DNA from: Larkinella humicola
GTDB taxonomy: Bacteria > Bacteroidota > Bacteroidia > Cytophagales > Spirosomataceae
Assembly (NCBI RefSeq): GCF_008727875.1
Contig: NZ_VTWS01000007.1
Coordinates: 1 to 64,000 of the forward strand
DNA: 64,000 bases
Direction of reading: 5' to 3'
In this document: one piece after another, positions 26,835 through 50,345 of the stretch
How the letters are laid out: every line of letters begins with the position of its first letter
How positions within the stretch are numbered: position 1 is the stretch's first letter
Position numbers and translations under genes: made by a program
Notes under the pieces: model-generated
Seen by the model: the letters and a program-made list of their open reading frames with translations, nothing else
The model's database searches: none
Told to the model about the DNA's origin: nothing

Positions 26835-28151
26835 CTATTTAATTTTCATTTTTTGAATAAAAAACCGTCCGATCTGCTTGCCCTGCGCCACGCCGTTTTC
26901 AATGGAATCCCGGAAGTGAATCCCGCCGTACAAACGGGAAACGGCGGCTTCGCTGGCGGCCTGTTCAAACGACCGGAACGATCGGGCCGGAATCCCAAAC
27001 TCCAGTTCTACCGTGTCGGTATAGGTAACCGGCCCACCGGCCAGCGTCGTCAAAACCGTGGCGATGGCTGCCGACATCACGCTGTGGCCACTGGTGTATT
27101 CCGGAAACGGGGGCGTTTGCAACATCGGTCGCCAATCCCGGTCAAGGTGCTGATTGATAAAGGTTTCCGGACGAATCCGGTTGCTGTGGTATTTTTCTTC
27201 CCAGCATGAGATAAACGCATCAGCCATCGTCAACCCCACCAGCGTGTGCCAGCGTACGGTTTCGGCCAGCGACAGGTTTCGCTGGAGGCAAACGATGCTG
27301 GTGATGCCCATCCAATGTCCACCCGGTGTGATTTTCTTGGTCCCGAAACTAACGTGGCCCTTCTGGTTCAGGAAAAAAGGATTGCAGTCCCAGAAATTGG
27401 CGATGTGCCGTTGCTGATCGGTGAGTGCGCGGGTGGTGTCGTATACTTCTTTCGCCAGTTGAAAAAACGGCGATCCGGTTTTTTCGTCGTACTTCACCAT
27501 CGGCAAAGGCCGGAACTGCGACGCACTATCGAGCAGAAAAGGGCGCAATCTGGGCCAATGGGGCTCATACGCTTCCGAGTAGGCCGGGGGCGTCGGTTGC
27601 CAGTAACCCGGTTCGTTCGTGGGCGTGAAACGCAGATAACCGCTCGTTTTGATGTAGCCATCCTGAGCCGCATACCGGACGAGTTTTTTTACCAGCGTGT
27701 CGGCGTAGGCCCGCGTGGCCTGAATACGGGCGTCCGTCAGCCGGAACCGGTTTTTGGCCTCTTTCACCAACGCCAGCCGGTCTTTTTCAAGCGTATAGCC
27801 CGACGGCAACAAATCCTCACCCATGCGCAGAAGGGCGTATAAACTACCAAACCGGGCGTCGATTTGGGCGTCCGGCTGTCCGGTAAATGCCGGATAACTG
27901 CGCAGCAAACCGCCAAAAGGGACATAGTTGGCCGGGCGTTTTTGCTGGTATAGCAGTTCGTAGGCAGCCAGGTTGGCATACGCGTAATACCGGGCCGATG
28001 CACAGGGGCCGGTGACGTCGTTGACCATGACATCGGTCAGTTTTTTCAAGGTTTTCGCGTAGGCAGCAGCTTCCGTTTCCACCACAGGCGGTTCGGCCCG
28101 GAGGGTAAGGCTGCAAGCCAGCAGCAACAGAAATAGGAGTCTTTTTTTCAT
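26835..28151 (-). CDS. PAP2/vanadium-dependent haloperoxidase-like protein, copy 1
   Basis: 438 residues from ATG 28151, two bases after the UnbV gene stop. A signal peptide (MKKRLLFLLLLACSLTLRA) directs export. The vanadate/phosphate site is complete: K-x6-RP in KYHSNRIRP (near 320), SGH in YTSGHSVMS (near 353), and R-x5-H in SRLYGGIHF (near 404). Either haloperoxidase or acid phosphatase chemistry could use these residues. Function in a PUL is unknown. A homologue (36741-38066) follows the second UnbV gene in the same order. Confidence 0.87.
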   Translation of the reverse strand: MKKRLLFLLLLACSLTLRAEPPVVETEAAAYAKTLKKLTDVMVNDVTGPCASARYYAYANLAAYELLYQQKRPANYVPFGGLLRSYPAFTGQPDAQIDARFGSLYALLRMGEDLLPSGYTLEKDRLALVKEAKNRFRLTDARIQATRAYADTLVKKLVRYAAQDGYIKTSGYLRFTPTNEPGYWQPTPPAYSEAYEPHWPRLRPFLLDSASQFRPLPMVKYDEKTGSPFFQLAKEVYDTTRALTDQQRHIANFWDCNPFFLNQKGHVSFGTKKITPGGHWMGITSIVCLQRNLSLAETVRWHTLVGLTMADAFISCWEEKYHSNRIRPETFINQHLDRDWRPMLQTPPFPEYTSGHSVMSAAIATVLTTLAGGPVTYTDTVELEFGIPARSFRSFEQAASEAAVSRLYGGIHFRDSIENGVAQGKQIGRFFIQKMKIK

Positions 28152-28153
28152 AC

Positions 28154-31100
28154 TCAACGGGTCTTTTGGTAAACCCGGATGCTGTCATTATTACGGCTAA
28201 ACAAGATGGTCAGGGTGTTATTCTGTTCCAGAGTGACGATGTCCCGCACGTCGCCCTCGACCCGAAAACCGGCTTTTGACTGCGGCACGTACGAAAACCG
28301 GAACGTTCCGTTGTTTTTAAACAGCGAACCGTAGTTGGCATCCATCTTGCCAATCTTGATGCGGGTATACGACTGGTTTCCTCCGACCAGCAAATCCTTC
28401 AACCCGTCGCCATCGTAGTCAACCAGTGCCAGGGCAAAAATGGGCGCAAACTGGGCTTCAATGGGCAGGTCGTGTTTGGCAAAGGTGCCGTCGCCCTTGT
28501 TTTCCAGGAGGATAGAACAGAACGTGGTCGCCTGAAGTGTGTCGGCCCGGGTCAGTTGTTCCGGCGTCAGGATCTCTTTCAGGGTGGCGTCGGCGAAGGA
28601 CTGATAGGTCGGAAATTTTCGGCGAAGCGGAAAAAGCTGGTTGAGAGCTTCATCGCGGCTCACCAACGGATACGAACGGCCCTGGTTGTAATAACACAGG
28701 AACGGGTCGATGGCTTCGTTCTGGTCAAAATCGCCGTATACCATCGTCACCGGCTCGGTTTCGGTCGGTTTCATCTGGCTGTTGCGGCCAAAATTGCCGA
28801 CCACCAGATCCAGATCGCCATCGTTGTCAAGGTCGGCGGTTTCGATGCGGTTCCACCAGCCGTTTGATTGAGTGATTGAGCGATTGAGTGAGTTAGTGAA
28901 TACCCTGCCGGATTCATTTTTTAGAATCGTAACGGGCAACCATTCACCGACGAGGACGAGGTCTTGCCAGCCATCTTGGTCAAGGTCCAGCGCGACGGCG
29001 TCGGTAACCAGACCGATTTTGGTTAGAAAGGGCGCAAGCTGAGCGGTTTGATCGGTAAAAATGCCTTTGCCATCGTTGATGAGGATGCGGCTGCTGGTGG
29101 GTTCGGGATACCGGCCCGGAATGACCCGGCCCCCTACGAACAAATCGAGGTCACCGTCTTTGTCAAAATCCAGGGAAACGACGCAGCCATCACTGATGGT
29201 TTCGTCGGGAAGTGCCCCGGTTTGCCGCGCAAAATTCCCTTTTCCGTCGTTTAGGTACAACCGGTCCTGCAACAGCAGATCGTCGGGCAAATAGGCAAAA
29301 CCACCACTGGCTACGTACAAGTCCGGATCGCCATCGCCGTCGGCATCGAAAAACAGCGCGTCCGTGTCTTCGTGCATTTTATCCGCATCGAAAGCGGATT
29401 GCGGACTTACTTGCCAGCTTCCATTCTTTTGCTGCAAAAGCAAGCTTCCCGGCTGGCCTTTCGCACCGGCGGCATACAAATCGACCAGACCGTCTCCGTT
29501 GACATCGGCCTTCGCCAGATGCGGCCCCTGAAATGATAACATATTGGGAATCAACAACTGCCGCTTGAAATCATTATAAGCGTCCTCCGTATGCCGGTAC
29601 GGGAGCGAATCTCTAAGAACTTCCGTAAAAACCGGTTTCTCCAAGACGGTTTTGGTCCAGTCGTATTTTCCCGCTGCGTCTTCCGGTTTCAAAACCAGCT
29701 TTTGGTTGGCCTTTACGCCCCGCAACACCTGCATGTGGTCGTTCGGCCAGACAATTCGCAGACTATCGACGGTCGTCGCTTTGCCCAAACCAAAATGCAG
29801 GGGCGTATACAGACCGGACTGAAAACCACGCGAGGTGTTAAACTCCTGATACTGCGTCATTCCCTGGCTATACACCCATACTTTCGCCCCGGCAGCGAGC
29901 GTCGCCGGACTGTTCCCGAGCTGAACCTGCACATAATGCTGCTCCGAAACCCGGCTGTCATTGCGGTAAATCGAGGGCGGAACGTTGATGTTGTTGGTGA
30001 TGATTTCCAGATCACCGTCGTTGTCCAGATCGGCATAAACCGCCCCGTTCGAAAGCGCTTTCTGGTCAAGTCCCCAGGCTTTTACCTTGTTTTCGAACGT
30101 TAACTGACCGGTATTCCGGAAAATGTAATGTTGGGTTGTGGTCGACGGCATTTGCCTGAGAATGTCCATCATGGCCGTCGAATCGCCCCGCGCAATCTTC
30201 AACTGCTGGTCGGCGTAGAACTTCATGAAGTCCATGTTGGTGTAATCCCGCAGGTAGCCGTTGGTGACGTACAGATCCTTCCAGCCGTCGTTGTCAAAAT
30301 CCGCAAATAGCGGACACCAGCTCCAGTCGGTATTGGAGATACCCGCCAGTTGCCCGATTTCGCTGAATTTGGGCACCAGAAAACCGTTCTCTTTTTGAAC
30401 GCCGGTGTGTAACTGCAACATATTCCGCATCAACTGGTGGTCAAATCCGTTGCGGAGCATGTTCTGGTAGCTTTCGTAATTCTCCGGGCCATAGAGCAGT
30501 TTTTGCCGCCTGTTGTCTTCGGGCAGCATATCGAGCGTAAAAATATCCGGCCAGCCGTCGTTGTTGATGTCCGTCACCTCGTTGCCCATTGAAAAGTAGC
30601 TCAAATGCCCGACCGACTTTTCCAGCGAATCGTAAAAGTGGCCCTTTCCGTCGTTGAGATAGAGGTAATCCTGTTCGATGTAGTCGTTGGAAACGTAAAT
30701 ATCGGGCCAGCCATCGAGGTTGATGTCCGCAATGGCAACGCCCAGTCCGAAACCGATCGGATTGCCTTTGATCCCGGCGGCTTCGCTGACATCCACGAAC
30801 GTCCCGTTATCGTTCCGCAGCAAGCGGTCGCCCGCAAACTCGTCGCGCATGGCTTTCACGGCAGCCGCATCGAACCGCTTGAAATCCTTGATGTTGTGGT
30901 TGAGCAGGAAACAGTCCAGATCGCCATCCTTGTCGTAATCAAAGAAAGCCGCCTGGGTGCTGTGGGTTGGCAAATCCAGCCCGTATTGGGCGGCCTGATC
31001 CGTGAACGCTAGGTTTTTATTGTTGATATACAGCCGGTTGCGCCGTTGTTCCGGTCGGCCGCTACCGGAGTAGCAGACGTAAATATCCAGCCAGCCATCG

Positions 31101-31483
31101 CGGTTGATATCAACCAGCGTCACCCCGGTTTTCCAGCCCAGCCCTTTGCCGATTCCCGCCGAAGACGAAATATCTTTGAACTTCAAACTACCCTGATTGA
31201 GGTACATCCGGTCGGCCACCATGTTCCCGGTGAAGTACAGATCCGGCAAACCGTCGTTGTTCAAATCACCGACCGCCACGCCCCCGCCGTTGTAGAAATA
31301 CTCGTAGGCCAGCACATTGTTTTTTTCGGTCTCGACCAGTTTGTTGACAAATTTTACACCGGTTTGCTGGGGATTGAGCAGGGTAAACTGGGCCAAAGCA
31401 GGTTGGGCGGTCAGCAGACCGACGAGGCAGCGTATCAGGCCGGAAAGCCGTCCGATGCGAAGAAAGTGTACGGTAGTAATCAT
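28154..31483 (-). CDS. FG-GAP/VCBS repeat protein with ASPIC/UnbV domain, copy 1
   Basis: 1109 residues with a signal peptide ending LAQ at residue 32. Long runs of VCBS/FG-GAP propeller blades with calcium-binding motifs, for example DLNNDGLPDLYF near 77 and DYDKDGDLDCFLL near 195, flank an ASPIC/UnbV domain near 515-600 (GLGKATTVDSLRIVWPN). Extracellular or periplasmic; no enzymatic motif. Near residue 860 a degenerate octamer DNA repeat (28864-28901) has become coding sequence without breaking the frame. It follows the SusD gene after a terminator-like hairpin and runs directly into the PAP2 gene. Confidence 0.9.
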   Translation of the reverse strand: MITTVHFLRIGRLSGLIRCLVGLLTAQPALAQFTLLNPQQTGVKFVNKLVETEKNNVLAYEYFYNGGGVAVGDLNNDGLPDLYFTGNMVADRMYLNQGSLKFKDISSSAGIGKGLGWKTGVTLVDINRDGWLDIYVCYSGSGRPEQRRNRLYINNKNLAFTDQAAQYGLDLPTHSTQAAFFDYDKDGDLDCFLLNHNIKDFKRFDAAAVKAMRDEFAGDRLLRNDNGTFVDVSEAAGIKGNPIGFGLGVAIADINLDGWPDIYVSNDYIEQDYLYLNDGKGHFYDSLEKSVGHLSYFSMGNEVTDINNDGWPDIFTLDMLPEDNRRQKLLYGPENYESYQNMLRNGFDHQLMRNMLQLHTGVQKENGFLVPKFSEIGQLAGISNTDWSWCPLFADFDNDGWKDLYVTNGYLRDYTNMDFMKFYADQQLKIARGDSTAMMDILRQMPSTTTQHYIFRNTGQLTFENKVKAWGLDQKALSNGAVYADLDNDGDLEIITNNINVPPSIYRNDSRVSEQHYVQVQLGNSPATLAAGAKVWVYSQGMTQYQEFNTSRGFQSGLYTPLHFGLGKATTVDSLRIVWPNDHMQVLRGVKANQKLVLKPEDAAGKYDWTKTVLEKPVFTEVLRDSLPYRHTEDAYNDFKRQLLIPNMLSFQGPHLAKADVNGDGLVDLYAAGAKGQPGSLLLQQKNGSWQVSPQSAFDADKMHEDTDALFFDADGDGDPDLYVASGGFAYLPDDLLLQDRLYLNDGKGNFARQTGALPDETISDGCVVSLDFDKDGDLDLFVGGRVIPGRYPEPTSSRILINDGKGIFTDQTAQLAPFLTKIGLVTDAVALDLDQDGWQDLVLVGEWLPVTILKNESGRVFTNSLNRSITQSNGWWNRIETADLDNDGDLDLVVGNFGRNSQMKPTETEPVTMVYGDFDQNEAIDPFLCYYNQGRSYPLVSRDEALNQLFPLRRKFPTYQSFADATLKEILTPEQLTRADTLQATTFCSILLENKGDGTFAKHDLPIEAQFAPIFALALVDYDGDGLKDLLVGGNQSYTRIKIGKMDANYGSLFKNNGTFRFSYVPQSKAGFRVEGDVRDIVTLEQNNTLTILFSRNNDSIRVYQKTR
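28861..28901. repeat. Octamer repeat inside the UnbV gene
   Basis: Plus strand shows consecutive octamers GATTGAGT, GATTGAGC, GATTGAGT and GAGTTAGT, then GAAT. The same T, C, T pattern of last bases occurs at 54959-54985. The coded residues (NSLNRSITQSN on the minus strand) have no match in the paralogous protein. Confidence 0.8.
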
Positions 31484-31490
31484 TAAAAAG

Positions 31491-31539
31491 ACTTACGGGT
31501 TAACAAGCCCACATAGCGACAGCCTATTAACCCGTAAGT
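31491..31539 (-). terminator. Hairpin terminator after SusD copy 1
   Basis: 13-bp perfect arms ACTTACGGGTTAA and TTAACCCGTAAGT with a 23-base loop, followed on the minus strand by CTTTTT, between the SusD stop (31560) and the UnbV start (31483). May allow partial read-through to the UnbV gene. Confidence 0.75.
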
Positions 31540-31559
31540 TACGAAATTATACAAGTTAC

Positions 31560-33143
31560 TTATTGTTTATCCCACCAGATCCGGGTCGTAAACAGATCGG
31601 GGCCCTGCACCGCAATGGCCGCGTTGTACTGAGCCGCGTTCCGGCTGGCTTCCGACGATGGATACCGCAACCGGCGCATGATGGTACCACCGGTTTCGTT
31701 GCCCGCGTAGTTGGTCGGGGTCAAAACCGGGTAGCCCGTCCGACGCCAGTTGGCGTAAGCTTCGTACGAATTCAGGAAGTTAACCGCCCAGTATTGCGTG
31801 CCGATTTGCTCCATTTGTTGTGCCGTCGTACCGGTTGCCAGATACGGATGCGCCGTCAGGTAAGCCGTGATGGAAGCCGCCGGAATGGTTCCGCCGTACA
31901 ACGACATCATGCTCATGGCCGCTGTCACGCCTTTGTTGTAGTGTGCAGCCGCCTGACCGTCACCCCAGCCGCGAAGGGCTGCTTCTGCCAATAGGTATTC
32001 CACTTCGGCATAGCTCTGGAAAACCGTCGGGGCCGAGTTGCTCGCGATTTTGTTCAGGTTGGCTTCCGAATACGTCGCCATCGACTGGTCGGTCCAGGTT
32101 GGAATAAGCGTTTTGATCGTCGTCACGTCATACCCGTTTGGCAAGCCTTTCTGTACAGCCGGGGCCGATGCGGTGGCTTCTTTGGTCGGGTCAGCATTTC
32201 CCTCCCACAAGGTTGCGATAAACGGCAGACGCGGGTCGTTGTTGTTTTTCAGGAAGTTAACAAACGTCTGGCTGAGTTTGCTGTTGGCATTGCCTTTCAG
32301 GTTGGCCGCGTCGTATTCCTGCGTTTTCAGCGTGTTGCTGTCCAGGTTCCGTTTGTTGTCGTCGCCCTCGGCATGGTTCACTTTGGCAATGTCGTCATTG
32401 CTCTGCATCACGCCCCCGGCAATCGCTTTTTTCACATAGGTTTCCGCTTTGGCCGGGTCCACTTTCGTGAGCCGCATGCCCAACCGGAGCATCAACGAAT
32501 AGGCAAACTTCTTCCATTTGGTCAGATCCCCCGCGAAGATGATATCGCCCGCACCGTAGCCGGTTTTGGTGGCATCGAGGGCCGGAGCCGCCAGATCCAG
32601 TTCATTGAGCATATCGGCATAAATGTCGGCCTGCTTGTCGTATTTCGGTGAGTACGTATTGTTCAGATACCCTTTTGCGGCTTCGGAATACGGAATGTCG
32701 CCGTACAGATCCGTTACGCGGTGGTAGGCAAACACCCGGAAAATCCGGGCCACGTTGTAGAGGTTCGACTGCGCCGGATCGTCTTTCGTCAGGGCAATGA
32801 TCTGTTCCAGTTCCTTGATGTGCGAACCGTAGGCCGTCTCGAAAAACGCATCGGAATACGGACCGTTGTACAGGTACTTATCTCCCGACCAGTAGGTGTT
32901 CAGGGCGGCAAAATGCTGGATGATAGCACCGGCATAAATCAGATTTCCCCGGTGGTTTTCGTAACCTGTTCCGGCGGTTTTCACCACACTGTAAGAAAAC
33001 AGGTTGGGAATCACCGGCGTTGTGAGGGCGTTCGGGTTGGTGTTGAGTTCCTCAAACCCGTTGTCGCAAGAGGAAAACAGGAGACTGGCGCTCAGGAGAC
33101 TCGTCAGGATCGGCAGTCGTCTTCTTTTTATTGTTTGTAACAT
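31560..33143 (-). CDS. SusD/RagB-like glycan-binding lipoprotein, copy 1
   Basis: 527 residues. Lipobox cysteine at residue 26 (LLFSSC), followed by DNGFEELNTNPN. The SusD-like (SusD-like_2) helical repeats include RVTDLYGDIPYSEA near 130 and KKFAYSLMLRLGMRLTKVDP near 200. Expected to sit on the outer surface over the SusC channel. It lies 28 bases downstream of the SusC gene in the same orientation. Confidence 0.95.
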   Translation of the reverse strand: MLQTIKRRRLPILTSLLSASLLFSSCDNGFEELNTNPNALTTPVIPNLFSYSVVKTAGTGYENHRGNLIYAGAIIQHFAALNTYWSGDKYLYNGPYSDAFFETAYGSHIKELEQIIALTKDDPAQSNLYNVARIFRVFAYHRVTDLYGDIPYSEAAKGYLNNTYSPKYDKQADIYADMLNELDLAAPALDATKTGYGAGDIIFAGDLTKWKKFAYSLMLRLGMRLTKVDPAKAETYVKKAIAGGVMQSNDDIAKVNHAEGDDNKRNLDSNTLKTQEYDAANLKGNANSKLSQTFVNFLKNNNDPRLPFIATLWEGNADPTKEATASAPAVQKGLPNGYDVTTIKTLIPTWTDQSMATYSEANLNKIASNSAPTVFQSYAEVEYLLAEAALRGWGDGQAAAHYNKGVTAAMSMMSLYGGTIPAASITAYLTAHPYLATGTTAQQMEQIGTQYWAVNFLNSYEAYANWRRTGYPVLTPTNYAGNETGGTIMRRLRYPSSEASRNAAQYNAAIAVQGPDLFTTRIWWDKQ

Positions 33144-33171
33144 GATGCTGTAGTGTTAAGATCAGTAGTTC

Positions 33172-36100
33172 CTAGAAACGAACCATCAGGTTCAGACCAA
33201 AGCTGCGGGCCGGTGGTACGCCGAACATTTCGAGTCCCTGTGCATTTCCGCTGTTGTAGGTCGATTCCGGATCGACATTTGGCACTTTGCTGTACAATAA
33301 CAGCAGGTTCCGGGCGACGAACGACAAGCTAACCGACTGAATGGGCGTTTTTGCCAGGAACGACTTCGGCAGGGTGTAGCCAAACGTCAACTGGCGCAGT
33401 TTGGCGAAATCCGAGCTATAGATGAACTGGTCGGTGATCGTCGTCAGACCGCTGTAGTAGTCCTGAACGTCTTTGCCCGCAAACGTTTTCGTGAACGCAT
33501 CGCCGGTCGGCGAAACACCGGTTACGGTCAAACCGCCTTCACGGCCCACCAGCGTTTCTTTGGCCAGGCCTCTGGCGTAGGCGAAATAGTTGGTCGCACT
33601 GTACAGTTTGGCCCCAAATTTCGCATCGATCAGGAAGCTCATCGAGAAGTTCCGGTAGCTGAAGGTGTTGGTCAACCCCATCGTCAACGGCGGCACACCA
33701 CGACCCAGCATCGTAAATTCGCTGCGCATCGGAACGCCGGTAGCCGTGTTATAAACCGTGTTGCCATTGGCATCTTTCAGGGCTCTATACCCCGCCAGCA
33801 TCCCATAAGGCTCACCCTCAAAGTGATAGACGTACGCACTTTGTGTCCGCGACTGGTCAAGTTCCAGGCGTTTCAGACCATCGGCGATTTTTACGACTTT
33901 GTTATCGTTATACGCCATGTTGTAGGCCACATTCCACGTCAGACCGCTGGCCGCTTTAACGGGCGTACCGGTCAGCAACACTTCAATCCCTTTGTTCACG
34001 ACTTCACCCACGTTCAGCAACACGTTGCCGTAGCCGGAAGCCGATGAAGTTGACGCCGTCACCGGATCATTTTTCGTCACCCGGTTATAATACGTCAGGT
34101 CAAGTCCCAGTTTGTTGTTGAACAGCTTGGTTTCCAGACCAATTTCCGTGGTCGTCGAGGTGTTGGGCTGCAACAGGGCGTTCGGAATGGTTCCGCCGTT
34201 GATGCGCATCAGCGGGACGCTGCCCACGTAGGAGTTACCTTCCAGGGCGTAGGTCAGGTTCAGGGCGTATGGGTTCGGATAACCACCCCCTACCTGCGCC
34301 AGCGAAGCGCGGATTTTCCCGTAATTCAGCCAGTTGCCTTTGTTGGGCAGCACGTCGGAGAACACGAAGCTCAAACCGGCCGACGGATAGAACAGGCTAT
34401 TGTTGGCCTTCGCCAGCGTCGAGAACCAGTCCTGGCGACCGGTCAGGGTCAGGAACAGCACATTCTGGTAACCCACATCCGCCGAAGCAAACAGGGAGTT
34501 GATACCAAAACCGCTGTAGCCGTAGCCCGACGATTTGTTGATCGTGTTGTCGAGGAAGTAGTTGAAAGGCACGTTGAACTGGCTGCCGTTGTAGCTCATT
34601 TCCTCCGTCGAGCGACGCATCCGGTTTCCACCCGCCAGGGCATTGACCGAGAAAGCCCCGAACTCTTTGTTAAACCCAAGCAGCACTTCGGCGTTGGTTT
34701 CCTGAATCTGCACCTGACGACGGTTCATGCTCCCAAGCGTCGAATAGGCCAAACCGGTCGGTTCGATGCTCAGGTATTTCATCATGTTGTTGTCGGTACC
34801 CACCCGGCCCCGGATGTAGAGGAAGTCGGTGATGTTGTAGCGCATCGAAAACGATCCCAGGAAGCGGTTCCGAATGTCTTCGTTTTTCACTTTGTTCACC
34901 ACGAAATACGGGTTCTGTGCATACACGCTGCTGTTCCAGAGAGCCTCATATCCACGGGAATCGTAACCCGGATCCAGCGAACGGATGTCGACCGTATTGG
35001 CAATCATCTGCACCCCGTAGTTCGGGTTTTTGGGCGTATCCGACAGGAAGGTCCGGTTGGTTCCGGTTTCAATGTTGTACTGAGCAACGCCTTCGAAAAG
35101 CACTTTTTTCGACAGGTTGGCATTGGCGCTGAGGTTGAACGACTTCCGGTTGAACCCGGAGTTTGGAATGCTGCTTTTCGAGTCGAGGTTCGAGGCAGAG
35201 AAACGGAAGCTGGCGGCTTCGTTTCCACCGGCCACCGCCACGGTGTTGGTGAAGGTGCTACCGGCGTTGTAGAAATTCTTGACGTTATCTTTCTGGGCTG
35301 AATACGGCCGGGTTACGCCGTCGAACTGAATCACCGGCGAACCGTCGATCCGGGCACCCCACGATTGCGCTCCCGTGTTGATGGCTTCCTGCTGGGTCAG
35401 GGGTTTGGCCTGCCGGATTCCCTGCCCGTAGTCATACTGCCAGTCGGTCAACGTAAAGGGACGATCGCTGGTGTAGGTTCCGTTGTATTCGACCCCGATT
35501 CCTTTCTGGCCTTTCCCGGTTTTGGTCGTGATCAGAATGACCCCGTTCGAAGCGCGTGAACCGTAGAGAGCCGCAGCCGTTCCCCCTTTCAACACCGAAA
35601 TGGTTTCGATGTCGTCCGGGTTAATGCTGTTCAAACCGTCGCCCGTGTCCGTTCCGCCCCACATTCCGGCCGAGTTGACGTTCGTGTTGTCGATGGGCAC
35701 CCCGTTGACAACGTACAGGGGCTGGTTGTTACCACTCAGCGAACCGTTCCCCCGGATAATGACCCGGCTCGATCCGCCCGGTCCCGTTGCCGTTGCGGTT
35801 GCGTTCACCCCGGCGACTTTCCCCGACAAGGCGTTGCCAAGGTTGATTTCGCGGGCCTGCGTAAAATCCGATCCTTTCACTTCCGTCACCGAATAACCCA
35901 GGGCTTTTTTGTCTTTGGCGATCCCCAACGCCGTTACGACGACCTCCTCCAGCGTCTTGTCATCTTCAACCAGCGCGACATCGATGGTCGTCTGGTCGCC
36001 CACGGTAATGTTCTGGGCCACAAACCCGAGTGACTGAATTACCAGCACACTACCTTTGCCGACGCTGATGGAATACCGGCCGTCGGAATCCGTGATCGTT

Positions 36101-36261
36101 CCTTTGTTCGTTCCTTTAATCAAAACGTTGGCACCTGGAATGGCGCTCTGGCTCGCATCCGTCACTTTTCCCTGTACGTTCAGGAGTTGCGCCCACGACA
36201 CGCTGCAACTCACGAGCAGAACGAAAAAAAGGAGAGTAAACCGCTCTTTACATAGCTTCAT
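33172..36261 (-). CDS. SusC/RagA-like TonB-dependent outer-membrane transporter, copy 1
   Basis: 1029 residues, signal peptide 1-24. Carboxypeptidase-regulatory-like domain about 27-105 (QGKVTDASQSAIPGANVLIKG), then a TonB plug (KTLEEVVVTALGIAKDKKALGYSV; GVILITTKTGKG near 245) and the barrel to the C-terminal F. No N-terminal STN domain, so it is not of the sigma/anti-sigma-signalling type. Imports oligosaccharides or similar with SusD. Located at the head of the fucosidase/hexosaminidase PUL. Confidence 0.97.
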   Translation of the reverse strand: MKLCKERFTLLFFVLLVSCSVSWAQLLNVQGKVTDASQSAIPGANVLIKGTNKGTITDSDGRYSISVGKGSVLVIQSLGFVAQNITVGDQTTIDVALVEDDKTLEEVVVTALGIAKDKKALGYSVTEVKGSDFTQAREINLGNALSGKVAGVNATATATGPGGSSRVIIRGNGSLSGNNQPLYVVNGVPIDNTNVNSAGMWGGTDTGDGLNSINPDDIETISVLKGGTAAALYGSRASNGVILITTKTGKGQKGIGVEYNGTYTSDRPFTLTDWQYDYGQGIRQAKPLTQQEAINTGAQSWGARIDGSPVIQFDGVTRPYSAQKDNVKNFYNAGSTFTNTVAVAGGNEAASFRFSASNLDSKSSIPNSGFNRKSFNLSANANLSKKVLFEGVAQYNIETGTNRTFLSDTPKNPNYGVQMIANTVDIRSLDPGYDSRGYEALWNSSVYAQNPYFVVNKVKNEDIRNRFLGSFSMRYNITDFLYIRGRVGTDNNMMKYLSIEPTGLAYSTLGSMNRRQVQIQETNAEVLLGFNKEFGAFSVNALAGGNRMRRSTEEMSYNGSQFNVPFNYFLDNTINKSSGYGYSGFGINSLFASADVGYQNVLFLTLTGRQDWFSTLAKANNSLFYPSAGLSFVFSDVLPNKGNWLNYGKIRASLAQVGGGYPNPYALNLTYALEGNSYVGSVPLMRINGGTIPNALLQPNTSTTTEIGLETKLFNNKLGLDLTYYNRVTKNDPVTASTSSASGYGNVLLNVGEVVNKGIEVLLTGTPVKAASGLTWNVAYNMAYNDNKVVKIADGLKRLELDQSRTQSAYVYHFEGEPYGMLAGYRALKDANGNTVYNTATGVPMRSEFTMLGRGVPPLTMGLTNTFSYRNFSMSFLIDAKFGAKLYSATNYFAYARGLAKETLVGREGGLTVTGVSPTGDAFTKTFAGKDVQDYYSGLTTITDQFIYSSDFAKLRQLTFGYTLPKSFLAKTPIQSVSLSFVARNLLLLYSKVPNVDPESTYNSGNAQGLEMFGVPPARSFGLNLMVRF

Positions 36262-38066: not shown

Positions 38067-41000
38067 TTTTTGTAAACCTGAACCGGTTCGTTGAAGGCCC
38101 CGATTACCAAATACTTCTGCTCCTTTACCTGTAATTCGACCACCGCTTTGACATCCCCAATCACCGATAAACCGGCTTCGGGTTGACTCACATACGAAAA
38201 ACCGCCTTTCCCGTCTCCTTTTAATAAACAACCATAATTGGCATCCAGACTGCCAATTTTCAGCCGATTATCGGATTTGTTTCCCAGCAGCAAAACATCC
38301 ATAAAACCGTCGTGATCGAAGTCTTCAACCAGTGATTTCGTTATTGGAGAAAATTGGGCCTGAAGCGGCAGAATCCGTTTTTCAAATGCGCCATCTTTCG
38401 CCAGAAAACAGACGGAACGGCATTCCGTAACCGTTATTTTTTTAGCTTTCGCTAAATCCTCCGCCGAGAAAATGTCGTTAATGGTTGCCGTCGAATAGTC
38501 TTTGTAGTAGCCAAATTTCCGACGCATGGGGAAGATCTGATCATTCAATTCGTCCCGGCTGACAAACGGATAGGATGTTCCCTGCACAAAAAAACTGAAG
38601 AACGGATCAATGGAACCGTTGTTATCAAAGTCGGCATACACCAGCTCGGCGGGTTCTTTTCTCGAGTATTTAAGCTGCGAATTGATGCCCAGATTTCCGG
38701 CGATAAGGTCTTTTTTACCGTCACCGTTTACATCAGCAACCGTGATCGAAAACCAGAAACCGTTTTCTTCTTCTGGAAAGTAGTGAGCGGTTTTATCCAC
38801 AAAACCGTCTTTGGTATTGACAAACACTTTAATTGGCATCAGTTCCCCACACAGCATCAAGTCTTTCCGGCCATCGCCATCCAGATCTTCCCATTGGGCA
38901 TCAGTAACCATGCCGACGGTCGAGAACGGCGTTTTTACGATTTTAAACTGTCCCTTTCCGTTATTTTCCAGCAAATAGGAAGCGGGTGGTTCCGGATACC
39001 GCCCCGGAATAACCCGCCCGGCGACAAACAGATCCAGATCGCCATCACTGTCGAAATCCACTACCCGAACACAGGATTTACTGCTGGCCGTCAGCACGGG
39101 TAAAGCGGTTGTAATCAATTTTAAATTGCCTTTGCCATCATTGATATACAGGACATCCTGCAACGATGGCGTGTTGGGTTCAAACAAGGAATAACCGCCT
39201 TTGGCAACGTATAGATCATCGTAGCCATCGCCATTGGCATCGAAAAAAACAGCCGCCGAAAGCGCCGAAACGTTCTCGTCTCCAATGGTTAATTCGTCAA
39301 TTTTTTTGAAGGTGCCGTCCGTTTGCTGCAACCAGATTTTGCCGTTGGTATTTTTATCCCCGCCAATAAAAAGATCCTCCAACCCGTCTTTATTCACATC
39401 GCCTTTTGCCAGAACCGGCCCAACCTGCGAATACATAAACAGCATCAGCGGCTGGCGTTTGAAATCATTTTCGTTGTAGCCTTCGTGAAGAAAGGAAATG
39501 ACCTTCTCGGTTTTTTGAAAAATACCGGGTTTGTTTTTCTGGACCACCCCTCCTTTGGACTTTAAAGGACTGGTAGACTGCGTAATCGTGAGAAGCTGAT
39601 TAGCAGCTACTTGCCTCAGCCTTTGTTCAGTTTGGTCGGGCCAGATCACTTTGATGGAATCGACCATCGTGGCCTGATCGAGGCCAAAATGCAGCCGGGT
39701 CGATTGCGAAGACAGGTAACCCCGAACCGGTTGTTGCTCCTGATACTGCAACCCGCCTTGGGTATAGACCGTAACCTTGGCTCCCACCGCCTGTTTATTC
39801 TTGCCAGCCGAAACCAGTTTGAGTTGAATGTAAGACGTTTTTAATTGCTCCCGGCTCAGGTTCTGGTATACAAAAGCGGGTTCGTTGATGTTGTTGACGA
39901 CCAGTTCCAAATCGCCGTCGTTATCCAGATCGGCATACACCGCCCCGTTCGAAATCGAAGCGGTTTGAAATCCCCAATCCGTCTGTTTATTCGCAAAAGT
40001 CAGATCCCGGTTATTCTTAAAAATATAATTGGGCAATTTGGTCGATGGCATGGCCCGGATCAAATCCATGAGCTGAATCGATTCGCGTTTGATCGCTTTC
40101 TGCACTTTATAATCACCCCAGTATTTCAGAAAATCCTTGTTGGTATAATCCCGCAAATACCCGTTGGTGATAAACAGATCTTTGTAACCGTCGTTGTCAA
40201 AATCAGCCAGCAAAGGCGCCCAGCTCCAATCCGTATTCGAAACACCGGCGGCCTGTGCAATTTCGCTGAAGGTTCCGTCGCCGTTGTTCAACTGCAACAT
40301 GTTGCGCATGTATTGCTTGTAGAGTTTTTGCTGAACCATGAGTTCAAAAGACTCGTAGTTTTCCTGGAGTTGCAGCAGTTTTTGCCGCCGATTGTCTTCG
40401 GGTAACATGTCCAGTGACATAATATCCGGCAGACCGTCGTTGTTGTAATCGGCAATGTCAATGCCCATCGAAAACTGCGCCAGATGCCGGAAATAGTGCT
40501 GGGTTTCGTCTTTGAACGTCCCGTTTTTCTGGTTGATGTAGAGGTAATCCGATTCGTTGTAATCGTTGGTGACGTAAATATCGGGCCAGCCATCCTGGTT
40601 CACATCGGCAATGGCCATACCCAACCCAAACGTGAGCGGATACTGGTGAATACCGGCTTTTTTGGTGACATCGACAAAATGGTTATCCCGGTTTTCATAG
40701 AGTTTATTCCCGGCCAGTTCATCCACTTCGTTCCGCAGTTTGGCCAGTTCCATGTTGTCGTATTTCTTCACATTGTGATTCAACAGCATCATGTCCAGAT
40801 CGCCGTCGTTATCAAAATCGAAAAAAGCCGACTGGGTGCTGTAGCCCGGATCATCGAGACCATATTGCCTGGCCTGTTCGGCAAACCGCACTGACCCATC
40901 GGACGAAACGCCCTGGTTGATAAACAATTGGTTCCGGCGTTTGTCGTCTTCTCCTTTGCCGGAATAACAGACATAGATATCCAGCAGGCCATCGCCGTTT

Positions 41001-41416
41001 ACGTCGGCCATGCTAACGCCGGTTTTCCAGCCGCCCGACCGACCGCCCAAGCCCGGCGCAGCGGTTTTGGTGACGTCTTTAAATTTCAGTCCACCCAGAT
41101 TCAGGTAGAGTTTGCTGGGTTTCAGATTGGCGGTAAAAAACAGGTCCTCCAGGCCATCGCCGTTCAGATCGCCGACGGCGACACCGCCCCCGTTGTAAAA
41201 ATACTCGTAGGATAAGACGTTCAGGCTTTCGTTTTCGTCAATGTCGTTGCTGAAATCGATGGCGGTTTGTTTCGGGGAAAGGAGTTGAAACAGAGTCGTT
41301 TGGGCTTGCAAAAAGGTTACCGGGAGACTCAACAGCAAGAGAAGCCCTACTTTAGGCACCCACGCTGTTTTTAAACCGGATGCGTACCTTTTGTATTCCG
41401 AACCGAGGACAATCAT
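38063..41416 (-). CDS. FG-GAP/VCBS repeat protein with ASPIC/UnbV domain, copy 2
   Basis: 1117 residues, signal peptide ending LQAQ near residue 39. Blade motifs such as DLNGDGLEDLFF and DFDNDGDLDMMLL, and an ASPIC/UnbV domain near 525-610 (GLDQATMVDSIKVIWPDQT). Homologous over the full length to copy 1 (28154-31483). Where copy 1 carries the coding octamer repeat, copy 2 has unrelated residues (DKTAHYFPEEE). It starts about 66 bases after the terminator that follows SusD copy 2 and runs into the PAP2 gene with a four-base overlap. Confidence 0.9.
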   Translation of the reverse strand: MIVLGSEYKRYASGLKTAWVPKVGLLLLLSLPVTFLQAQTTLFQLLSPKQTAIDFSNDIDENESLNVLSYEYFYNGGGVAVGDLNGDGLEDLFFTANLKPSKLYLNLGGLKFKDVTKTAAPGLGGRSGGWKTGVSMADVNGDGLLDIYVCYSGKGEDDKRRNQLFINQGVSSDGSVRFAEQARQYGLDDPGYSTQSAFFDFDNDGDLDMMLLNHNVKKYDNMELAKLRNEVDELAGNKLYENRDNHFVDVTKKAGIHQYPLTFGLGMAIADVNQDGWPDIYVTNDYNESDYLYINQKNGTFKDETQHYFRHLAQFSMGIDIADYNNDGLPDIMSLDMLPEDNRRQKLLQLQENYESFELMVQQKLYKQYMRNMLQLNNGDGTFSEIAQAAGVSNTDWSWAPLLADFDNDGYKDLFITNGYLRDYTNKDFLKYWGDYKVQKAIKRESIQLMDLIRAMPSTKLPNYIFKNNRDLTFANKQTDWGFQTASISNGAVYADLDNDGDLELVVNNINEPAFVYQNLSREQLKTSYIQLKLVSAGKNKQAVGAKVTVYTQGGLQYQEQQPVRGYLSSQSTRLHFGLDQATMVDSIKVIWPDQTEQRLRQVAANQLLTITQSTSPLKSKGGVVQKNKPGIFQKTEKVISFLHEGYNENDFKRQPLMLFMYSQVGPVLAKGDVNKDGLEDLFIGGDKNTNGKIWLQQTDGTFKKIDELTIGDENVSALSAAVFFDANGDGYDDLYVAKGGYSLFEPNTPSLQDVLYINDGKGNLKLITTALPVLTASSKSCVRVVDFDSDGDLDLFVAGRVIPGRYPEPPASYLLENNGKGQFKIVKTPFSTVGMVTDAQWEDLDGDGRKDLMLCGELMPIKVFVNTKDGFVDKTAHYFPEEENGFWFSITVADVNGDGKKDLIAGNLGINSQLKYSRKEPAELVYADFDNNGSIDPFFSFFVQGTSYPFVSRDELNDQIFPMRRKFGYYKDYSTATINDIFSAEDLAKAKKITVTECRSVCFLAKDGAFEKRILPLQAQFSPITKSLVEDFDHDGFMDVLLLGNKSDNRLKIGSLDANYGCLLKGDGKGGFSYVSQPEAGLSVIGDVKAVVELQVKEQKYLVIGAFNEPVQVYKK

Positions 41417-41481
41417 GGTAGCTTAAAACGAAAAACTTCAACAGGAGAAGTTGAAGTTAAGGTAATTTCTGAAACAAATAA

Positions 41482-41518
41482 AAATAGGGAAGGCTGCCGG
41501 ATGGCACCTTCCCTATTT
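41482..41518 (-). terminator. Hairpin terminator after SusD copy 2
   Basis: 12-bp arms AAATAGGGAAGG and CCTTCCCTATTT with a 13-base inner part, eight bases after the SusD stop at 41526. Confidence 0.82.
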
Positions 41519-41525
41519 CGTCGTA

Positions 41526-43112
41526 TTACTTATCCCACCAAACCCGGCCAGTGAGCAAATCACCACCCGTCAGGCGGCTAACCGCTTCGGTGTAACTGGT
41601 TTTGTTATTGATAATTTCCGTTGACAGGTAAATCATGCGTCTTGGAATGGTGGCATTCGTGACATTCCCCGGATAGTTGACCGGCGTCAGCACCGGATAG
41701 CCCGACCGTCGCCAGTTGATCCAGTTTTCAACAAAGTCCATGTAGCTTCCCGTTGCCAGCCAATACTGCGTGTTGATGGCATTCAGTGACGCTTCCGTCG
41801 ACGTCGCATTCAGCGGATTGGCGGCTACGTAAGCGGCTGCGGCTGCGGGCGTGATGGCGGCCGTGGCATCCAGTTGCGACAGTGACGTCATGGCAGCCGT
41901 TACACCGTTAGCGTAATGTTCGGCGGCCGTTCCCGGCACGTTCCAACCCCGCACTTTGGCTTCCGCCAGCAGCAGTTCGGTTTGCGCGTAGGTAATCGTT
42001 TCCAGTGTGCCGTTCCGTTTCAGGTACACCGAAATGCGTGGTCGGGAATATTTTCCCAGGGGCGCCACGTCGTTGCCGGTTCCTGTCGCTCCCGGATAGC
42101 CCGCTGCCGTCCGGATGTCCCGGGCACCACCGCTCAGGTCGTAACCATTTGGCAAGCCAACCTGAACAGCAGGATCGTTAACCCCCACCAGCGTTTGAAG
42201 CGCATTGTTGGCCAGGCCCGGCTGTGGCACTTCGGCAATGGCACTCAAACGCGGGTCATTGGTCGCTTTCAGGGCGTCGATGAAGGTTTTAGACCACCGC
42301 AGTTCCCGGAAATCATCCGCAACCTGGTACACGTTGAAAATCCCGGACGTCGCATTATTGGCATCCGATACGATTTTCGCGTTGTCGTCGTTGGACGTGA
42401 ACACCCCGCCCGCAGCCGCTTTTTCGGCCCAGGTTTTCGCCGTGGCCGGATCGATCTTGGTCAGACGCATGGCCGCCCGCAACATCAGCGAATAGCCCAG
42501 TTTTTTCCATTTGACGATGTCACCGGCGTAATACAAGTCGCCGGTTGGCTTCAGCTTGGTGGCATCCAGGGCGGCCGTTGCCTGCTCCAGTTCGGTCAGA
42601 ATACCGGTATAAATCGACTGTTGCGTATCGTATTTCGGGTTCGCAACACCTTCTTTCACTTTGAAAGCTTCGCTGTACGGAATATCGCCGTAAACGTCGG
42701 TGGCCCGCTGCATGTTCATGGCCTGCATGATCCGGCCAACGTTATACAGATTCGTGTACTGCTCCTTGCCTTTCGTCAGGCTGATCATTTCAGCCAAAAC
42801 CGTACCGATGCTGTAAGCCCGGCTGAACAGGCTGCCCTGATAGCTGGTCGAGTTCTGGGTGTTGACATATTTGTCACCATTTCCGTAATACGTAAAGGTT
42901 GACGCCAGAACCTGCATCGAGGTGCTTTGGTAGAGAATCCCATCGTAGCCCAGGTTGATGTACGACATCTGGGCGTTGGGTAAAAAGAAGTTCGGGTCCC
43001 AGGTTGACTCACTCGACCGGGTCGGGTCGGTGTTGATTTCGTCAAATTTGTCGGTACAGCTTGTCGCACAAACCAACAACAGCGCTGCTATATAGATTGA
43101 AGTTTTCTTCAT
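41526..43112 (-). CDS. SusD/RagB-like lipoprotein, copy 2
   Basis: 528 residues from ATG 43112; a TTG at 43121 touches the SusC stop and is less likely. Lipobox cysteine at residue 19 (CATSC). SusD-like motifs include RATDVYGDIPYSEAF near 140 and KKLGYSLMLRAAMRLTKIDP. Nine bases separate it from the SusC stop, so the pair is co-translated. Partner of the SusC copy 2; ligand unknown. Confidence 0.95.
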   Translation of the reverse strand: MKKTSIYIAALLLVCATSCTDKFDEINTDPTRSSESTWDPNFFLPNAQMSYINLGYDGILYQSTSMQVLASTFTYYGNGDKYVNTQNSTSYQGSLFSRAYSIGTVLAEMISLTKGKEQYTNLYNVGRIMQAMNMQRATDVYGDIPYSEAFKVKEGVANPKYDTQQSIYTGILTELEQATAALDATKLKPTGDLYYAGDIVKWKKLGYSLMLRAAMRLTKIDPATAKTWAEKAAAGGVFTSNDDNAKIVSDANNATSGIFNVYQVADDFRELRWSKTFIDALKATNDPRLSAIAEVPQPGLANNALQTLVGVNDPAVQVGLPNGYDLSGGARDIRTAAGYPGATGTGNDVAPLGKYSRPRISVYLKRNGTLETITYAQTELLLAEAKVRGWNVPGTAAEHYANGVTAAMTSLSQLDATAAITPAAAAAYVAANPLNATSTEASLNAINTQYWLATGSYMDFVENWINWRRSGYPVLTPVNYPGNVTNATIPRRMIYLSTEIINNKTSYTEAVSRLTGGDLLTGRVWWDK

Positions 43113-43121
43113 GGTTTTCAA

Positions 43122-46100
43122 TTATTTTTTGAACCGGGCATTTAAGGTGAAACCAAACGTTCTGGTTGAAGGCAACTGGGCACCTTCCGTCCCGGCGTAG
43201 CGCAGGTCGGACGAGAAACCAGCTTCCGGATCGAAGTTTTCGGTGTGCTTCAGCAGCGTAGCCAGGTTACGGCCAACCAGTGACAGGGATATGTCTTCAA
43301 ACGGCAGTTTGCTACCCGTAAACCATTTTTCCGGCAGGTGATAGCTCAGGACGACCTGACGCAGTTTAATGAAATCGGCATTGAACACGTTCAGTCTCGA
43401 GATGTTGGTCACCAGAGCCGGATAGTAGGTGTAGGCCGGTACGTTCCGGGTGTTGGTTTCGCCGGTAGCCAGCACACCCGATGCCACGACTCCGGTTTCA
43501 CGACCCACCAGCGTCATCTTGTTCAGCCCGTCCACGATGGAATAGTGGTTGGTCGCCGACAGCACTTTTGCGCCAAATTTATAGTCGAACAGGAACGAAA
43601 GGCCAAAGTTTCCGTAGTTGAAGCTGTTGTTCAAACCGCCGTATACTTTCGGAATGGCTGACCCCATAGGCGTCAGTGCTCCCCGTTCCGGAACCCCGTT
43701 GGCACCGACGATGACCTGCCCGCTGGCGTTGTATTTGTAATCATAAGCCATAATTTGCGCGGCCGGCAAGCCTTTCACGTGGGCGATGTTTCCGTTCAGA
43801 GGCCGGTAGGTTCCCAGTCCGAGGGTGGTCGTTCCGCCATCGCCGTCGATGTCCACAATCGTATTTTTGACGTTGGTGATGTTGAATGACACATCCCACT
43901 TGAACGATTTGTTCACAATCGGCGTACCGGTGATCAACAACTCAAGCCCGGTATTTTTGGTCGAACCCAGGTTCAGAACCCGCGACGAGTACCCGGTGGT
44001 GGGCGACAACGGACCGCTCACAATTTCATCCTTGGTTTCCCGGTTAAAATAGGCGAAGTCGATTCCCAGACGGTTTTGCAAAAATTTGGTTTCAAAACCA
44101 ATTTCAAACTCTTTCAGCCGGAACGGTTTCAGGTTGAGGTTGGGCAACTGAGAACTAAATCCGCCTTGTGGAACGCCATTGATGGTGTTCCCCAGCGAGT
44201 AATACTGGCTCGTCAGATAGGCATCAAACGCTTCACCGCTGGTTTGGGCATACGACGCCCGCAGTTTACCAAAATCCAGGGAAGGCACTTTGAACAATTC
44301 CGAGAACACAAAACTGGCGGAAACCGAAGGCGCAAAAATACCCCGGTTGGCCGACGGCAGGGTTGAATAGATGTCGTAACGACCCGTGGTTGACAGCGTC
44401 AGGAAGTTCTTGTAGTCAAAATCCGCCGTATAATACGCCGATTGGACCTGCCGTTCGTTAAATCCGTAGGATTGCCCTTTGGTCAGTGTATTCGACAGGG
44501 TATACAGGTACGGAATGCTCAGACTACCGCCCGAAACCCCAACACTCTCGGCTCTGTTTTTTCTGAGGTTGGCCCCCAGCGCCATATTCAGGTTCAAATC
44601 CGGAAGCAGTTTGCGGTTAATTCCCAACAAACCGTCGATGTTCATTTCGTGTTTCTGCTCCTTGCTGTAATTGACGCTACCCAGCCGCGAGTAAGCGGTT
44701 CCGTAGGGCGTTACACTAAAGCCGCCGTCATTGATCAGGTCATACCCAATCCGGCCCTGCAGGTAAATCCAGTCCGCAAACTGGTATTTACCGGTAATGG
44801 CCGAAATCAGGCGTTTCCGATCCAGACTACTTTTATACTGATTCACGACAAACCAAGGGTTGGTTTTGTACGTGTCATCGCTGAATGTCAACTCATTACC
44901 CGTTACAGGATCGAAACCCGGTTTCAAAGCGGCCTGGTTGAAACTTGTCGCCAGGAGCATAATCCCGTAGTTCGGGTTCTGGGGAGCATCGCTCAAAGCT
45001 GGCCGGTTTTTATCCTGCTGGTCGATGTAGTTCCCCATAATGGTCACATCGAACTTATCGGTAACTTTCTGATTCACATTGAGGTTAATGGTTTTCCGTT
45101 TCATACCGCTGTTCCGAACGGTAGTCTGGGCGTCCATCGACGACAGGGATAACCGGAAGCTGGTTTGCTCATTTCCGCCCGACATCGCCACGGTATTCGT
45201 CAGCGTAGCGGCTGTCCGGTAGAACTGGTCGATGTTGTCTTTGACGGGTGAATACGGATACTGTTTGCCGTCGAACTGGGTATACATGGCACCGTCCATT
45301 TTTTCGCCCCAGCTGTAAATCCCCGAATTTCGGGCGCTGTTGACGTCGGTTGGCCGTTTACCCTGCGTTCCCTGACCGTATTCATACTGATAGTCGGTCC
45401 AGTTAATGACCTTGTCAAACTGCATGTTTCCGTTGTATTCCACCGAAAGACCGGAGTTTTTGCTGCCACCTTTGGTCGTAATCAGAATGACCCCGTTGGC
45501 CGCCCGCGTACCATACAAAGCCGCAGCCGTAGCTCCTTTTAACACCGTCATGGTTTCAATATCATCCGGGTTAATGTTGGCAATCCCGTCGCCGTTATTG
45601 TTTCCGCCCCACTCACCGGCGTTTCCGCGCGAGGAGTTATCCATCGGAACCCCATTGATGACAAACAAAGGGCTACCACCGCTGAAGTTGCTCACCCCCC
45701 GAAGGTTGATCCGGGACGACGAACCAGGACCGCCGGTTCCGGGCGTAATGCTTAAACCGGCCACCCTCCCCTGCAGGGAGTTGATGACGTTGGTTTCGCG
45801 CGCCTGGTTGACCGATGACGCATCGATGGTCGTTACGGAATACCCCAGCGAGCGCGTGTCCCGCTTGATCCCCAAAGCCGTTACGACGACTTCTTCCAGT
45901 GAAGCGTCGCCGGGTTGCAACTGAACTTCGATGGTCGAGCGGTTTCCGACTGCAATTTCTTGTTTTGCGTAGCCAATATAAGAAACCACCAGAACGGCGT
46001 TATCGTCGGGTACGACAATTCGAAAACTTCCATTTCCATCGGTGTTGGTGCCGCGGGTCGTTCCCTTGATGGTGATGGTTGCGCCAGCCAGCCCGTTCCC

Positions 46101-46235
46101 TTTCTCATCCGACACCTTTCCGGTAACTGCTTTATCCACAGCCAATGAAGGTGAAGCCGCAAAGAGTAGCCAGGCTCCGGCAAAGACAAAAACCTTTAAG
46201 CAGGTTTTAAGTAGTTTTTGTTTCATAAACTTCAT
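43122..46235 (-). CDS. SusC/RagA-like TonB-dependent transporter, copy 2
   Basis: 1037 residues, signal peptide about 1-32. Regulatory-like domain GKVSDEKGNGLAGATITIKG near 40-115, plug with LEEVVVTALGIKRDTRSLGYSV and GVILITTKGG near 245, barrel to the end RFKK. No STN domain. First gene of the second SusC-SusD-UnbV-PAP2 set. The next gene upstream is divergent. Confidence 0.97.
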   Translation of the reverse strand: MKFMKQKLLKTCLKVFVFAGAWLLFAASPSLAVDKAVTGKVSDEKGNGLAGATITIKGTTRGTNTDGNGSFRIVVPDDNAVLVVSYIGYAKQEIAVGNRSTIEVQLQPGDASLEEVVVTALGIKRDTRSLGYSVTTIDASSVNQARETNVINSLQGRVAGLSITPGTGGPGSSSRINLRGVSNFSGGSPLFVINGVPMDNSSRGNAGEWGGNNNGDGIANINPDDIETMTVLKGATAAALYGTRAANGVILITTKGGSKNSGLSVEYNGNMQFDKVINWTDYQYEYGQGTQGKRPTDVNSARNSGIYSWGEKMDGAMYTQFDGKQYPYSPVKDNIDQFYRTAATLTNTVAMSGGNEQTSFRLSLSSMDAQTTVRNSGMKRKTINLNVNQKVTDKFDVTIMGNYIDQQDKNRPALSDAPQNPNYGIMLLATSFNQAALKPGFDPVTGNELTFSDDTYKTNPWFVVNQYKSSLDRKRLISAITGKYQFADWIYLQGRIGYDLINDGGFSVTPYGTAYSRLGSVNYSKEQKHEMNIDGLLGINRKLLPDLNLNMALGANLRKNRAESVGVSGGSLSIPYLYTLSNTLTKGQSYGFNERQVQSAYYTADFDYKNFLTLSTTGRYDIYSTLPSANRGIFAPSVSASFVFSELFKVPSLDFGKLRASYAQTSGEAFDAYLTSQYYSLGNTINGVPQGGFSSQLPNLNLKPFRLKEFEIGFETKFLQNRLGIDFAYFNRETKDEIVSGPLSPTTGYSSRVLNLGSTKNTGLELLITGTPIVNKSFKWDVSFNITNVKNTIVDIDGDGGTTTLGLGTYRPLNGNIAHVKGLPAAQIMAYDYKYNASGQVIVGANGVPERGALTPMGSAIPKVYGGLNNSFNYGNFGLSFLFDYKFGAKVLSATNHYSIVDGLNKMTLVGRETGVVASGVLATGETNTRNVPAYTYYPALVTNISRLNVFNADFIKLRQVVLSYHLPEKWFTGSKLPFEDISLSLVGRNLATLLKHTENFDPEAGFSSDLRYAGTEGAQLPSTRTFGFTLNARFKK

Positions 46236-50326: not shown

Positions 50327-50345
50327 TTTGAGAATTTCGTTAAGA

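Follow-up and report, generated by a model that had tools for sequence, protein, structure and literature searches.

The stretch analysed here, a window of 64,000 nucleotides from a contig of Larkinella humicola (NZ_VTWS01000007.1), carries on its minus strand two sets of genes in which a SusC-SusD uptake pair (SusCD) is followed by a large UnbV/FG-GAP protein and, tightly coupled to it, a PAP2 protein of the vanadium-haloperoxidase type. In set 1, the SusC-type TonB-dependent transporter (43122..46235; 1037 amino acids; TIGR04056, 641.5 bits) adjoins the SusD-type protein (41526..43121; 531 amino acids; PF12771). A terminator-like hairpin followed by a T run lies in the SusD/UnbV gap (about 41480..41517; intergenic z -7.9), ahead of the UnbV gene (38063..41416; 1117 amino acids; PF13517 and PF07593) and the PAP2 gene (36741..38066; PF01569), and the stop of the former shares an ATGA with the start of the latter. 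Set 2 repeats this order with SusC (33172..36261; 1029 amino acids; TIGR04056, 621.8 bits), SusD (31560..33143; 527 amino acids; PF12771), a hairpin with its T run (about 31484..31539; intergenic z -6.1), UnbV (28154..31483; 1109 amino acids; PF13517 and PF07593) and PAP2 (26835..28151; 438 amino acids; PF01569), only two bases separating the last two genes. Set 2 then runs on, on the same strand, into a GH20 hexosaminidase with a PA14 domain (24313..26721), a GH29 alpha-L-fucosidase (22819..24273) and an 818-residue esterase/S9-like hydrolase (20344..22800), while no carbohydrate-active enzyme (CAZyme) gene lies in the same run as set 1. The common order, the tight coupling and the downstream extension of one set only had all been claimed in an earlier, sequence-only reading of this DNA, and they are borne out by coordinates and family assignments.

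Judging from their sequences, the two sets are paralogues (46% identity between the PAP2 proteins and 50% between the UnbV proteins). Their SusD proteins match PF12771/PF12741, and the nearest solved SusC for both transporters is BT_2264 (5fq6; E 1.3e-126 for set 2), so that a non-glycan substrate is possible. Four such sets are present in the host genome: of the two outside the window, one has a second UnbV gene and the other a 258-residue open reading frame (ORF) before UnbV. Of the seven PAP2 matches in the genome, only the four with at least 42% identity (including the two of the window) have a large UnbV gene as neighbour.

The association of UnbV with the enzyme extends far beyond this genome. 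We drew 148 genomes spread evenly over the class and called an enzyme close when its E-value was better than 1e-100. In this class draw, an UnbV gene lies within 8 kb of 29 of the 31 close matches (directly upstream on the same strand in 17 cases), against none of the 18 weaker homologues. As the UnbV search behind these counts scored five candidates per genome, the stretches were rechecked with hidden Markov models (HMMs). For the 27 close matches outside the host, an UnbV of at least 300 bits was found within 8 kb in 24 and within 400 bases in 18, and one more close match (G021) has an UnbV cut by the end of its stretch. None of the 18 weaker homologues has an UnbV of at least 300 bits within 8 kb, one of them (G118) having a distant UnbV-like ORF of 196 bits. 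At the level of genomes, a big UnbV is present in all 20 that carry a close enzyme and in 6 of the remaining 128 (p 8e-20 by Fisher's test, which treats species as independent although they are not). Conversely, a close enzyme is found at most 8 kb away from 37 of the 69 UnbV genes of the draw. A second sample, the best 80 of 585 relatives from a contig search, consists of close kin and is hence biased; in it, UnbV is immediately upstream of the enzyme in 66 of 80 loci, within six genes upstream in 73, and within 8 kb on either strand in 75. Measured by the longest open frame, 25 of the 66 immediate pairs overlap by at least four bases and 11 by one base. No ORF among the 80 loci matches both models, as a fusion of the two proteins would, and a 1461-residue ORF of Gemmatirosa that was considered as a fusion proved to be an overlong frame running across a separate UnbV gene. 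A looser arrangement is found in the host genome (locus L028, contig C17), where roughly 3 kb separate a distant 757-residue UnbV-like ORF (7728-10001) from a remote PAP2 ORF (12979-14526); this locus and that of G118 may possibly represent an older form of the pairing.

Both proteins also diverge together. In 30 loci that possess all four genes, the correlation of pairwise distances is r 0.962 for UnbV with the enzyme and 0.990 for SusC with SusD, against 0.724-0.730 when a member of one pair is compared with a member of the other; permuted data never exceeded 0.41. When 60 loci in which UnbV is a neighbour are taken, the correlation between UnbV and the enzyme is 0.88 and the nearest neighbour is identical in 42. 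Similarly, the two proteins tend to share their lipoprotein state, as called by a heuristic lipobox pattern, broader than that of a first scan (enzymes 16/79, UnbV 17/73). Next to a PF12771-type SusD, none of 30 enzymes and none of 30 UnbV proteins has a lipobox; next to the other SusD type, 8 of 9 enzymes and 10 of 12 UnbV proteins do. The counts are 14/40 and 9/31 where there is no SusD in the run, and 21/22 and 33/37 in a set of loci from Flavobacteriaceae. Within loci, the states of UnbV and enzyme agree in 59 of 64 cases (14 of 15 in the Flavobacteriaceae set), and four of the five discordant pairs look by eye like lipoboxes missed by the pattern. This agreement indicates that the two proteins act in a common location. 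In the window, none of the four UnbV and PAP2 proteins has a lipobox by this pattern (LLAC in the set 2 PAP2 protein might pass a laxer rule) and no secretion domain is found among their Pfam matches; the pair therefore looks soluble and periplasmic rather than surface-exposed, which makes the "surface system" of the sequence-only reading doubtful here. Taken together, the pairing counts, the co-divergence and the shared lipoprotein state make UnbV and the haloperoxidase a robust unit.

The PAP2 proteins of the window are kin of the Zobellia-type vanadium haloperoxidase, with an intact vanadate site. Both match PF01569 (37.1 and 45.3 bits, cut-off 27.2), and a search of the PDB returned a single solved close relative, the vanadium haloperoxidase of Zobellia galactanivorans (4cit/4usz), to which the set 2 protein aligns over residues 2-438 (E 8.7e-114; 42% identity to 4cit). 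The next solved chains are two other vanadium haloperoxidases (E 5.8e-5 and 3e-4), followed by NapH3 (0.12), the PAP2 phosphatase 9htz (0.26), and then NapH1 and a bromoperoxidase. When a profile of 26 relatives is used instead, haloperoxidases are retrieved with E-values from 6.3e-204 to 0.1; unrelated chains come next, and an acid phosphatase only at E 4.6. In neither the profile nor the single-sequence searches are the window proteins closer to solved phosphatases than to haloperoxidases. Seven residues (K, R, S-G-H, R, H), which we take to be the vanadate site, are invariant in all 84 aligned proteins (from the 80 loci and the four host sets) and lie outside the patterns used for finding the 80 loci. 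They are present in both window proteins and identical in 4cit, and with this assignment the complete site described earlier from the sequence holds. The resemblance to the Zobellia enzyme thus comprises full-length homology and the same site residues, but the window enzymes differ in their identity (42% for set 2), in having no recognised lipobox and in adjoining a PF12771-type SusD.

We know of no function for bacterial UnbV proteins. The AlphaFold model of the set 2 protein has a mean predicted local distance difference test score (pLDDT) of 92.6 (92.9 for the N-terminal half alone), and its strands and Pfam positions can be interpreted as a pair of propellers flanking the UnbV domain. In a fold search with the entire chain, other multi-propeller proteins obscured the result, so the N-terminal half was given a model of its own: its best match is CRTAC1, with aldos-2-ulose dehydratase, the alpha chains of integrins and GlcNAc-binding lectins next. 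FG-GAP repeats, a UnbV_ASPIC domain and a CRTAC1-like fold are thus all present, and 47 of the 59 columns invariant in 66 UnbV sequences lie before residue 560. Aldos-2-ulose dehydratase is a propeller with a catalytic metal site and cupin domains; no cupin domain occurs among the Pfam matches of the window proteins. This enzyme (4a7y, 4a7k) and the PVL-type lectins take ranks 2, 6, 7 and 8, but with low TM scores by query (0.33-0.45) and a fold shared over one propeller only. CRTAC1 and its UnbV-ASPIC relatives belong to the VCBS propeller superfamily (PMC8023676); the window proteins share PF13517, PF07593 and their best solved fold match with it, but are bacterial, of about 1100 amino acids, and have their UnbV domain flanked on either side by FG-GAP repeats. 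As the same superfamily includes, according to that paper, the sugar-converting aldos-2-ulose dehydratase and sugar-binding lectins, a sugar-binding or sugar-converting role of UnbV would fit the model. A 1575-residue UnbV open frame (L161, G007:C81:56735-59923) was seen in a genome lacking a close haloperoxidase.

In the window's kin, the pair is often joined to a SusCD operon. Among the 63 of the 80 close-kin loci with at least 8.5 kb of upstream sequence, SusC and SusD genes both lie upstream on the same strand in 35. Of 35 stretches between SusD and UnbV, 33 reach at least 30 bases, and 25 of the 33 contain a hairpin with a T run (z below -1.5 against shuffles in 29). By comparison, 13 of 29 SusC-SusD stretches reach 30 bases; none of the 13 contains a hairpin with a T run, and z is below -1.5 in two. 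Attenuation after SusD would be the natural reading of this contrast. In three loci (L072, 5123-6496; L078; L095), a protein of about 450-460 amino acids is encoded between SusD and UnbV, that of L072 having no Pfam match.

Sugar genes were counted by BLAST with identified example genes. At least one is present in 57 of 102 loci, the most frequent being ROK regulators (19) and SSF symporters (16), followed by GH29 (8), GH92, XylA and XylB (7 each), trehalase and GH65 (6 each) and NagB (5). In the class draw, a sugar gene accompanies 8 of 25 stretches from the 27 close matches outside the host and none of the 18 controls with weaker homologues (p 0.013), the queries having come from close-type loci, which favours close-type stretches. 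XylA is found in 7 of 22 Flavobacteriaceae loci, where we would estimate about 0.1 by chance (a single-copy gene, 20 kb of 4 Mb). Some enzymes without UnbV (L060, L071, L079; L177, L202; L244) lie beside NagB-ROK, XylB-XylA-symporter or GH65-trehalase genes, so that the link between haloperoxidase and sugar genes does not need UnbV. In Dyadobacter (L046, L052, L053, L063, L066, L069), downstream of the haloperoxidase lie a ThuA-like gene and a gene whose product has about 1056 amino acids.

The 22 Flavobacteriaceae loci, 20 of them picked by hand down the family match list and two taken from another search, have an UnbV gene within 8 kb in 18 cases and a SusD gene upstream in 12. In the family to which the genome of L104 belongs, the enzyme is found at E 1e-80 or better in 127 of 299 genomes. 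One locus (L199, genome G152, presumably a Zobellia) encodes an enzyme 98% identical to 4cit directly after three UnbV genes. The unit is also found on plasmids and in another phylum: a plasmid of Gemmatirosa (Gemmatimonadota) carries SusC, SusD, UnbV and the enzyme in this order, then another UnbV, SusC and SusD, and a Hymenobacter plasmid carries a TonB receptor, SusD, a VCBS protein, a hypothetical protein and the enzyme in two overlapping frames, with a GH3 gene downstream. The plasmid records label the gene "vanadium-dependent haloperoxidase". In the stretch examined around a relative on an Adhaeribacter plasmid (38%), no UnbV gene was found. Many Flavobacteriaceae loci have an ORF of about 300 codons after the haloperoxidase (L199, 5072-5971; L208, 5001-5912), with a GyrI-like domain in L199; it occurs in three class-draw stretches too.

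Gene order and its conservation, co-divergence, an anchoring state shared by pattern, an intact vanadate site and haloperoxidase kinship are what the loci themselves provide. Building on them, we infer a peroxidase activity of the enzyme here, its halide, the ligand of UnbV, the compartment and the purpose along the following lines. The unit would be a two-gene cassette of UnbV and a Zobellia-type vanadium haloperoxidase, placed at sugar-feeding loci and joined, among the kin of the window sets, onto SusCD uptake operons. SusCD would carry a saccharide across the outer membrane, to be processed by the products of neighbouring glycosidase, isomerase, kinase or symporter genes, and the hairpin after SusD would give transporter and cassette different levels. 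UnbV and the enzyme would share a compartment, the periplasm in this window and a lipid-anchored location in the Flavobacteriaceae type. There, the enzyme with bound vanadate and H2O2 would oxidise a halide, most likely iodide, resulting either in cyclic peroxide disposal or in the making of reactive halogen species, while UnbV, as a calcium-rich propeller with relatives that bind or convert sugars, would be its sugar-binding or scaffolding partner. That the enzyme performs peroxide/halide chemistry with UnbV as its partner at sugar-feeding loci is the reading we favour, tentatively and at a little under an even chance. Iodine uptake by Arenibacter C-21 provides a physiological parallel: it is reported to depend on glucose, oxygen and calcium, glucose being replaceable by a system that generates peroxide or oxidises iodide, and five or more homologues of the Zobellia enzyme are encoded in the genome (PMC5064120). 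A calcium-rich propeller beside a haloperoxidase near sugar genes fits these requirements.

Several observations weigh against this proposal. The enzyme occurs without UnbV at eight loci (L060, L071, L079, L097, L177, L202, L210 and L215) and in two class-draw genomes (G122 and G095). None of the queried sugar genes is present in 17 of the 25 class-draw stretches, and neither window set has a recognisable sugar oxidase gene. The residues of the vanadate site are common to PAP2 phosphatases as well, and for the set 2 protein a phosphatase (9htz) ranks between two chains of the haloperoxidase family. Finally, in the class draw outside the host, SusC and SusD both lie within about 8 kb of only 4 of the 27 close matches, a frequency we would not call above chance and one that speaks against SusCD as a fixed part of the cassette, although divergent SusD proteins may escape the HMMs and tandem UnbV genes push SusC beyond the 8-kb reach. 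A SusC search of all 148 genomes, scoring five candidates in each, gave matches at E 1e-200 in 6 and does not enter this count. The outcome of the refuting test set beforehand, a genome survey of UnbV-PAP2 pairing near SusCD, is divided: the pairing itself stands clearly in the survey (29/31 against 0/18), while the tie to SusCD is weaker (35/63 in close kin, 4/27 in the draw).

The main rival explanation takes the PAP2 protein to be a periplasmic phosphatase that frees sugars or glycans of phosphate for crossing the inner membrane, with UnbV binding the substrate. Its PAP2 domain, its small-sugar neighbours (XylA/XylB/SSF, trehalase, MFS), the match to 9htz at E 0.26 and the existence of SusCD loci with phosphatases, the phosphate-utilisation systems (PUS) of Flavobacterium (PMC8115612), would all suit such an enzyme; but the full-length relative that is far nearer to it was deposited as a vanadium haloperoxidase, and the profile search reaches haloperoxidases ahead of any phosphatase, so that we regard this rival as unlikely. 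Another explanation accepts the haloperoxidase kinship and sees a device for competition or protection, in which hypohalous acid hits competitors or the enzyme disarms toxins, sugar genes adjoining it because it pays there. PMC9296495 reports that vIPO3 of Zobellia is up on Ascophyllum versus alginate and discusses it alongside halogenated algal defences, and the presence of the cassette on plasmids and in another phylum would also suit such a device. The members with a PF12771-type SusD, however, have no lipobox and look periplasmic, a poor site for a weapon, and sugar genes are enriched beside the cassette; we hold this explanation to be rather doubtful. A variant closer to the favoured halide chemistry, and one we consider improbable, would have UnbV act as a sugar-converting enzyme in its own right, a calcium-dependent propeller (either aldos-2-ulose-dehydratase-like or a sugar oxidase) in complex with the haloperoxidase. 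Arriving sugar would then drive the peroxide/halide chemistry, and the reported need of Arenibacter iodine uptake for glucose, oxygen and calcium would be accounted for. That the adjacency arose by chance or by local duplication in one lineage, as the paralogy of the two window sets might suggest, is scarcely credible in view of the co-divergence, the class-draw survey with its HMM recheck, the lipoprotein agreement and the G152 and Gemmatirosa loci.

Compared with known systems, the window sets share the SusCD pair with polysaccharide utilisation loci, set 2 adding GH20 and GH29, but set 1 has no glycosidase; to our knowledge, neither UnbV nor the haloperoxidase is known as a part of such loci. 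The PUS of Flavobacterium likewise join a SusCD-like pair to non-CAZyme enzymes, but these are phosphomono- and diesterases, and the words PAP2, haloperoxidase and VCBS are absent from the main text of PMC8115612. The individual parts have thus been named before, but we did not find the UnbV-haloperoxidase unit described: no title or abstract joining UnbV or VCBS proteins, haloperoxidase and SusCD was found among the papers listed in a literature search that most subscription papers lay outside, and UnbV together with SusD gave no paper. Within these bounds, the term "undescribed" used for it earlier is upheld. The role of bacterial vanadium iodoperoxidases is, as far as we know, unsettled. 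Tying both protein families together, often at sugar loci, gives each of them a shared and testable context, and the pairing points to a partner protein for the Zobellia enzyme of known structure.

Two further features lie close to set 1. An FG-GAP protein, in whose translation a heme-like N-terminal motif (CGSCH) is seen, is encoded divergently from it (46730-48385, plus strand) and is a possible redox partner. Beyond it, a third SusC-SusD pair (48728-53669, minus strand) has no adjoining UnbV or PAP2/haloperoxidase gene and adjoins instead a short-chain dehydrogenase gene and a galactarate/altronate dehydratase-like gene.

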